A stretch of DNA of 64,000 nucleotides from Corallococcus coralloides DSM 2259 (GTDB lineage Bacteria; Myxococcota; Myxococcia; Myxococcales; Myxococcaceae), in NCBI RefSeq assembly GCF_000255295.1, contig NC_017030.1, forward strand, positions 8,034,328 through 8,098,327, written 5' to 3'. This document shows positions 53,780 through 54,119 of the stretch, piece after piece. The position numbers and the translations under genes are program-made. Under the pieces are notes generated by a model. The model worked only from the letters and a program-made list of their open reading frames with translations, was not told the DNA's origin and made no database searches. Numbering within the stretch: the stretch's first letter is position 1; every line of letters begins with the position of its first letter.

Positions 53780-53808
53780 TTGACAGCTCGCGACATCGCG
53801 TCTACTTC
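53780..53808 (+). promoter_or_regulatory. Candidate promoter of the methionine operon
   Basis: Perfect -35 TTGACA (53780-53785), 17-bp spacer, weak -10 TACTTC (53803-53808). Transcription would begin near 53815, giving a roughly 305-nt leader before metY and placing the leader ORF's ATG (53819) almost at the mRNA 5' end. Confidence 0.45.
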
Positions 53809-53818
53809 TTCTCGCAGA

Positions 53819-53893
53819 ATGTTCGTCACCTCCGCCATGTGCATGTGTTCGATGCCTGTTCCGGGTGGGCCCAAGCCCGCCGCGGCCGGCTGA
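53819..53893 (+). CDS. Met/Cys-rich leader peptide ORF (24 codons)
   Basis: ATG 53819 to TGA 53891-53893 encodes 24 residues. Codons 7-12 read MCMCSM (53837-53854): four of the first twelve residues are Met and two are Cys, in a genome where both are rare. The ORF then runs [12 protein letters not shown] to its stop. No Shine-Dalgarno sequence is seen; if the TTGACA promoter is right the ORF is nearly leaderless. It stands at the 5' end of a methionine biosynthesis operon and overlaps the first of four complementary RNA segments, as leader peptides of attenuators do. Confidence 0.55.
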
Positions 53894-54012
53894 CGCACAG
53901 CCTGCCCCTGGCGAGCCAACCGGAGCCCACCCACCCGCGAGGGTCGGTGGGCTTCGTCGTTCCGGGCCTCCGCTCTCGCATCTCTGCCGAAGAGCGTCGC
54001 AGCGCCCACCGA
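53863..54012 (+). promoter_or_regulatory. Candidate four-segment attenuator structure
   Basis: Segment 1 GGGTGGGC (53863-53870) lies 8 nt after the last Met codon of the leader ORF. Segment 2 GCCCACCC (53925-53932) pairs perfectly with it. Segment 2 also forms the hairpin 53924-53953: AGCCCACC/GGTGGGCT, a C-C mismatch, ACCC/GGGT and a GCGA tetraloop. Segment 3 TCGGTGGGC (53944-53952), the right arm of that hairpin, pairs perfectly with segment 4 GCCCACCGA (54004-54012). Thus 1:2, 2:3 and 3:4 are mutually exclusive, the order known from amino-acid attenuators. No U-tract follows 3:4; instead a C-rich tract suited to Rho lies downstream. Confidence 0.5.
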
Positions 54013-54119
54013 GTCCTGAAGCCCTCCCCGCCGCCCGCAGTGCCCTGACGTCCCCACCACCCGTCCGCCTTCACGCACGCGCGTTCCCTCCGGAGCGACG
54101 CGAACAGGAGTCCCTTGCC

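Follow-up and report, generated by a model that had tools for sequence, protein, structure and literature searches.

What does the DNA between the TTGACA promoter and metY of Corallococcus coralloides DSM 2259 encode, and could a translating ribosome use it to sense a sulfur amino acid? An initial annotation of the window (the whole stretch of 64,000 nt that was analyzed) had read this region as a methionine/cysteine leader-peptide attenuator upstream of metY-metX-hom, built from four alternately pairing segments. On direct reading, the promoter, the 24-codon ORF and the four segments lie exactly where they had been placed, the complementarities 1:2, 2:3 and 3:4 exist as claimed, and there is indeed no T-tract after 3:4. 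The features of the locus are given below in window coordinates; genera carry the analysis tool's own numbering, in which the genus of the window is g1.

53780-53808, + strand: promoter, with TTGACA at 53780-53785, a 17-nt spacer and the -10-like TACTTC at 53803-53808 (direct reading).
53819-53893, + strand: leader ORF of 24 codons, predicted to be leaderless (direct reading and comparison with relatives).
53837-53854, + strand: regulatory codons, three for Met (53837, 53843, 53852) and two for Cys (53840, 53846); Met-x-Met is kept across genera, Cys is variable.
53864-53870, + strand: segment A (formerly 1), GGUGGGC, within the ORF; invariant in alignment A1, its codon frame differing between the Met and the Cys form.
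53875-53881, + strand: segment 1b, GCCCGCC, forming a local hairpin with A across a 4-nt loop (consensus fold).
53925-53931, + strand: segment C (formerly 2), GCCCACC, partner of A in a putative antiterminator or of D in a putative terminator; (near-)invariant in A1 and backed by pairing counts.
53946-53952, + strand: segment D (formerly 3), GGUGGGC (alignment, consensus fold and pairing counts).
53953-53964, + strand: T-rich tail 3' of the C:D hairpin, TTCGTCGTTCCG (tail T counts).
53971-53996, + strand: third hairpin, CGCTCTCG...CGAAGAGCG, corresponding to the one that buries the Shine-Dalgarno sequence of metY/metX in other genera.
54004-54012, + strand: segment 4, GCCCACCGA, probably no part of the core; its pairing with D is variable in g1 and absent in g5.
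54120-55412, + strand: metY, O-acetylhomoserine sulfhydrylase family, with the ribosome-binding site AGGAG at 54107 (profile match).
55417-56754, + strand: metX-like homoserine acyltransferase (best NCBIfam match MetX, under the curated cut-off).
56751-59264, + strand: fused aspartate kinase/homoserine dehydrogenase, the hom of the initial annotation (profile match).

The leader ATG at 53819 stands ten bases past TACTTC and opens a frame whose codon tract reads Met-Cys-Met-Cys-Ser-Met, with no run of Cys codons. Segments 1, 2 and 3 as originally drawn are GGGTGGGC (53863-53870), GCCCACCC (53925-53932) and TCGGTGGGC (53944-53952), and the leader stop codon falls between 1b and C. The helices A:C (1:2) and C:D (2:3) have C in common and are mutually exclusive. 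The first reading had overlooked the T-rich tract 3' of 2:3, the first nine bases of which (53953-53961) are TTCGTCGTT. Rfam scans at loose and gathering thresholds returned nothing relevant as a riboswitch in the window and no T-box match, nor was a SAM aptamer found in the window or the scanned leader loci. The metY frame itself is open upstream across the leader region from a GTG at 53865 (window 53865-54119), so an automatic gene caller could add a false N-terminal extension over the attenuator.

Orthologues of metY are present in 45 of the 96 genomes of the family; a metY scan of the wider genome collection gave mostly other phyla, which were left out of the leader analysis. A leader with the Met-x-Met core stands upstream of metY or metX in six genera (g1, g3, g5, g6, g7 and g19), with peptides such as MTSLRSMCRMSM..., MTFAPIACRRMQM... 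and MNSVAFASCRMCM..., and it adjoins genes of the pathway of its own amino acid, metY or metX lying directly 3'. Met-x-Met is kept in 42 of 43 Met leaders, L183 being the sole loss, whereas Cys varies and is lacking altogether in four (L112, L114, L149 and L150); the methionine part of the proposed methionine/cysteine attenuator is thereby upheld, and the cysteine part is not. In an alignment of 19 leaders, segments A and D do not vary and C hardly does, and the peptide 3' of the Met codons is alike between genera. A covariance model of the leader gave matches in 59 of the 96 family genomes at E <= 0.01; with a few weak exceptions, the matches are to the leader, at E-values of about 1e-17 to 1e-27. 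All 27 g19 genomes were matched by this model, only four of them having a metY match, and in 12 of 12 examined metY-less g19 loci the element lies directly 5' of metX. Across 195 genomes of the phylum, the same model gave just two weak matches beyond the family (L177, L178), which were set aside and resemble plain terminators, as do rejected matches of 28-36 bits situated just 3' of the ends of coding frames (L162, L163, L168, L171, L180 and L181). Short GC-rich complementarities are common in GC-rich DNA, and a coincidence in an intergenic region of this kind might account for the pairings of a single locus. Comparison between genomes, however, shows that the leader ORF with its Met codons, the promoter spacing and segments 1-3 are conserved across six genera beyond what chance would give, and chance, refuted by this conservation and by the occurrence of the leader before two different first genes, keeps only a negligible probability.

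Some deviating loci were encountered in the same comparison. In one metagenome-derived g1 genome (L010/L031), exactly the C:D hairpin is missing with both flanks intact, which may reflect a true deletion or the misassembly of a strong hairpin. In g2, g11 and g21 (L117-L120), other short ORFs are located about 190-330 nt 5' of metY, e.g., EAMLMRGPGMRASAGECCCGCRI, with ends that are both Met-x-Met and Cys-rich and with different flanking RNA; they are possibly a combined Met and Cys leader. Palindrome-like repeats, TAACGGACATCC or ATCCGC..GCGGAT, occur upstream of the -35 box/metY in L023, L025, L026, L112, L113 and L122, and near the promoter of some leaders of the Cys type described below (L155, L172); they are a possible operator of a sulfur-related transcription factor.

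Through weak matches of the Met model, a second leader with runs of Cys codons was found, for example MTCSTHPTCCCCPASAVGVRPPVA (L161) and MSTPSRQEVCCCCRSRRWALVRRQRGG (L172). Its promoter spacing and its segments A, 1b, C and D are as in the Met form, and a plain U-tract, such as TTTTGACTTT, follows C:D. A model of this Cys form identified it in 40 genomes of five genera and did not detect it in g1, the genus of the window; it also recovered many Met leaders at 30-46 bits, a cross-recovery which indicates that the two leaders are related. The genes 3' of the Cys leader are typically those for a sulfate-binding protein and CysT, preceded in some genomes by a Porin_O_P gene. As exceptions, the leader is followed in g7 (L157, L159 and L173) by a 31-codon membrane-like ORF and a heme-type ABC transporter and in L169 by a signal-peptide gene, and a lone divergent scaffold match in g14 (L154), readable as MSSPIARCCRSVRVVGTCPPPVA, precedes a DUF4395 gene. 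The regulatory codon content, Met or Cys, tracks the target genes; judged from the codons, cysteine sensing would be the job of this separate, paralogous leader.

The Cys leaders also supplied the compensatory changes expected of real helices. Their C:D pairs are 100% formed with five two-sided changes, a number reached by 0 of 500 shuffles, and A:C, likewise 100% paired, shows a single two-sided change, found in L165, in which all three of A, C and D are altered together; for A:1b, 95% of cells are paired and the changes are one-sided only. The comparison supports the mutually exclusive helices, strongly for C:D and by one cell for A:C. Of the alignment of relatives that had been suggested as a check, the conservation of Met codons was borne out, whereas segments 1-3 of the Met leaders are invariant and show compensatory changes in their Cys paralogues only.

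Segment A is also where a different explanation has to be weighed, namely that the peptide end PxGGPxPAAG, and not the Met codons, arrests the ribosome under the influence of a metabolite, for instance SAM. The similarity of the peptide past the Met codons between genera would fit such an arrest, but the same stretch encodes A and 1b, and the Cys leaders read this RNA in other frames and thus into other residues: the codon frame of GGTGGG is 0 in every Met leader and 2 or 1 in the Cys leaders, from which it follows that the RNA is conserved, not the peptide end. Moreover, the regulatory residue agrees with the target genes in both forms, and nascent-peptide arrest is highly improbable.

Every one of the 61 leaders (43 of the Met and 18 of the Cys form) has a TTGAC-to-ATG spacing of 37-41 nt, the exact spread being partly set by the search range of 36-41 bases with which leaders were chosen. 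This fixed spacing, taken with usual promoter geometry, predicts an RNA start within a few bases of the ATG, and the leader ORF is accordingly predicted to be a leaderless uORF. An ORF at such fixed promoter spacing in all 61 leaders is hard to reconcile with a riboswitch or protein-bound leader in which the RNA answers SAM or a regulator and the ORF is incidental. SAM-I/IV riboswitches do stand at metY in two relatives, and the palindrome-like repeats 5' of the promoter in some genera might bind a regulator; against this, the window has no Rfam match and the Met/Cys codon content follows the target genes, leaving this explanation a shade less probable even than peptide arrest.

It remains to be considered which of the two helices shuts the operon off. 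The 12-nt tail after C:D holds a mean of 5.8 T in g1 (5-7 T per 12 nt), similar numbers elsewhere and 6.7 in the Cys leaders, with g1 T fractions of 0.08 before and 0.18 after it; the tail of the Met leaders is moderately U-rich, and an obvious U-tract after C:D is confined to the Cys form. Among 774 hairpins in 0.46 Mb of the genome, 18 have at least 5 T in 10 where 7.5 are expected; a T-rich tail like that of C:D is uncommon in the genome, not canonical and partly a matter of chance. A genome search for the pattern AGCCC...GGGCTTCGTC gave ten places with few perfect hairpins, too few for a statistic.

The initial annotation had held that a ribosome stalled for lack of Met-tRNA covers segment 1 and frees 2 to pair with 3. 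A standard footprint puts the leading edge of a ribosome some 12 nt beyond the base that opens its A-site codon. Counted from the start of each of the three Met codons, GGTGGGC begins 27, 21 and 12 nt downstream, so that a stall at whichever codon leaves segment 1 almost wholly free, contrary to the earlier account. This was modeled by folding nascent RNA up to C under ribosome masks of several footprints. With the stall at the first regulatory codon, A:C formed at all footprints in every Met leader (41 of 41) and every Cys leader (18 of 18). With the ribosome at the stop codon, most Cys leaders gave little A:C (mean 0.03-0.42) and the listed Met leaders of g3, g6 and g7 had a value of 0.00, and it still formed in g1 and g19. 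The fold model by itself accounts for shut-off neither in g1 nor in g19, and it leaves the polarity in g1 undecided. As soon as D can take part, C:D prevails under nearly all masks, from which it follows that the switch must be kinetic. On the strength of the T-rich tail, the terminator look of the Cys form and the stall geometry, C:D is likely the OFF (terminator) and A:C the ON (antiterminator) structure.

Under the polarity first proposed, starvation would favor 2:3 and expression, and in plenty 1:2 would form, leaving 3:4 to halt transcription via Rho or, in other genera, to block the ribosome-binding site. This appears doubtful and the direction is probably the reverse, the T-rich tail following 2:3 in all lineages and a U-tract following it in the Cys paralogues, which would then terminate under starvation. 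In addition, the 3:4 helix comprises 5-9 bp within g1, is absent in g5 and has no T-tract 3' of it. The mutually exclusive 1:2 and 2:3 of the alternating four-segment design are conserved, but segment 4 and its helix are not; 3:4 carries no mark of a terminator, and a conserved 3:4 helix of the trp type was not found in the leaders compared. Some observations do speak for the earlier polarity: when A:C is enforced in folds, most leaders pair D with sequence further downstream; a ribosome at the stop leaves A free in g1 and g19, permitting 1:2; and in g3 GCCCACC lies directly against the metY Shine-Dalgarno sequence. However, two g7 leaders lack CCCACC at that site, and enforcing A:C or C:D leaves the accessibility of the Shine-Dalgarno sequence unchanged.

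The Shine-Dalgarno sequence of metY/metX nevertheless lies inside a hairpin at a constant place in g3, g6, g7 and some g19 leaders, the outer stems of which differ (GGTGC:GCACC, GCGCTGC:GCAGCGC and GTGT:ACAC). The covariation count for this hairpin was not significant, and in single sequences the Shine-Dalgarno sequence was sequestered no more than in shuffled controls; from its position, a second, translational layer of control in the sister genera is plausible. In g1, the third hairpin (53971-53996) is not beside a start codon, metY's own site being about 120 bases downstream, and is probably a relict. The C:D loop GCGAGGG could also serve as an antisequestor by pairing with the third-hairpin arm CCCUCGC; the sequences permit it, but no fold opened the Shine-Dalgarno sequence, and it was rejected.

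Overall, a ribosome-sensed methionine attenuator with C:D as terminator and A:C as antiterminator is the reading in which we have good, though not full, confidence. Transcription would start a few bases 5' of the leader ATG, and a ribosome would load at the RNA 5' end and translate the 24-codon leader. When Met-tRNA is short, it would stall at the Met codons just 5' of segment A, A would pair with the emerging C, C:D would not form and the polymerase would go on into metY-metX-hom. With plentiful methionine, the ribosome would reach the stop, A would be kept at the ribosome edge or refolded with 1b, and C:D would form and, with its T-rich tail, act as an intrinsic terminator, modest in the Met form and strong in the Cys paralogue. 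Translational control may be added in several sister genera, where another hairpin hides the Shine-Dalgarno sequence of the first gene. The leader is probably a leader-peptide attenuator that senses methionine and shares its RNA scaffold with a cysteine counterpart, and bacteria of this family probably use stalled ribosomes to sense a shortage of sulfur amino acids.

With somewhat better than even confidence, this can be taken further: one scaffold carrying two codon sets, Met at metY/metX-hom and Cys runs at sulfate uptake, would form a ribosome-sensed sulfur regulon of this family and include the first methionine leader-peptide attenuator, used where sister lineages have a SAM riboswitch. 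If so, a Met-codon attenuator would add a sensor of Met-tRNA rather than SAM, and nature would have run an experiment in the Met/Cys pair, retargeting one RNA switch through a codon change; the pair also predicts a regulon that is small and open to testing, in bacteria that grow in laboratory culture. A literature search, with subscription papers mostly outside it and priority hence uncertain, gave no methionine leader-peptide attenuator, none in myxobacteria and no single scaffold with Met and Cys variants, and nothing relevant on attenuation or start-site maps in Myxococcus. In Proteobacteria, control of methionine synthesis has been ascribed to MetJ, MetR, SahR, SamR and SAM or SAH riboswitches; neither a leader-peptide attenuator nor myxobacteria are mentioned in the survey PMC4239095.

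Attenuators with a leader peptide have precedents, as do leaderless uORFs of the polycysteine type (PMC1262725; PMC9031893; PMC13236596). Like the trp, his and leu attenuators, the leader has a short ORF with codons for the end product between promoter and biosynthetic genes, and alternative hairpins with a terminator-like one 5' of the genes; it differs in serving methionine, in its predicted leaderless ORF, in the only moderately U-rich tail of its Met form and in replacing the 1:2/2:3/3:4 ladder with A:C or C:D sharing C, plus a local A:1b hairpin. The methionine-specific T-box of Lactobacillaceae (PMC4239095) also senses the charging of Met-tRNA, as proposed here, but in our case the ribosome would read the tRNA status without direct tRNA binding. 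Within the family itself, two genomes with metY but without the leader (L115 and L116) carry a SAM-I/IV riboswitch (RF01725) upstream of metY (L115:2321-2436 and L116:2308-2428), which is independent support for a methionine signal at this gene; the riboswitch precedes the same gene in the same family, whereas the proposed sensing is by codons, with no ligand pocket. Mycobacteria have leaderless short ORFs with polycysteine tracts (Canestrari et al., 2020, doi 10.1111/mmi.14498; described in PMC9031893 and cited in PMC13236596). These resemble the leader in being leaderless (here by prediction), in setting codons that sense a sulfur amino acid 5' of genes of sulfur metabolism and in control through ribosome pausing (here as proposed), and their masked downstream ribosome-binding site recalls the third hairpin of g3, g6, g7 and g19. 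No conserved terminator hairpin was found in the mycobacterial cys leaders (PMC1262725); in comparison, the leader described here belongs to another phylum, exists in a Met as well as a Cys version and is built on a conserved RNA scaffold with a terminator-like hairpin.
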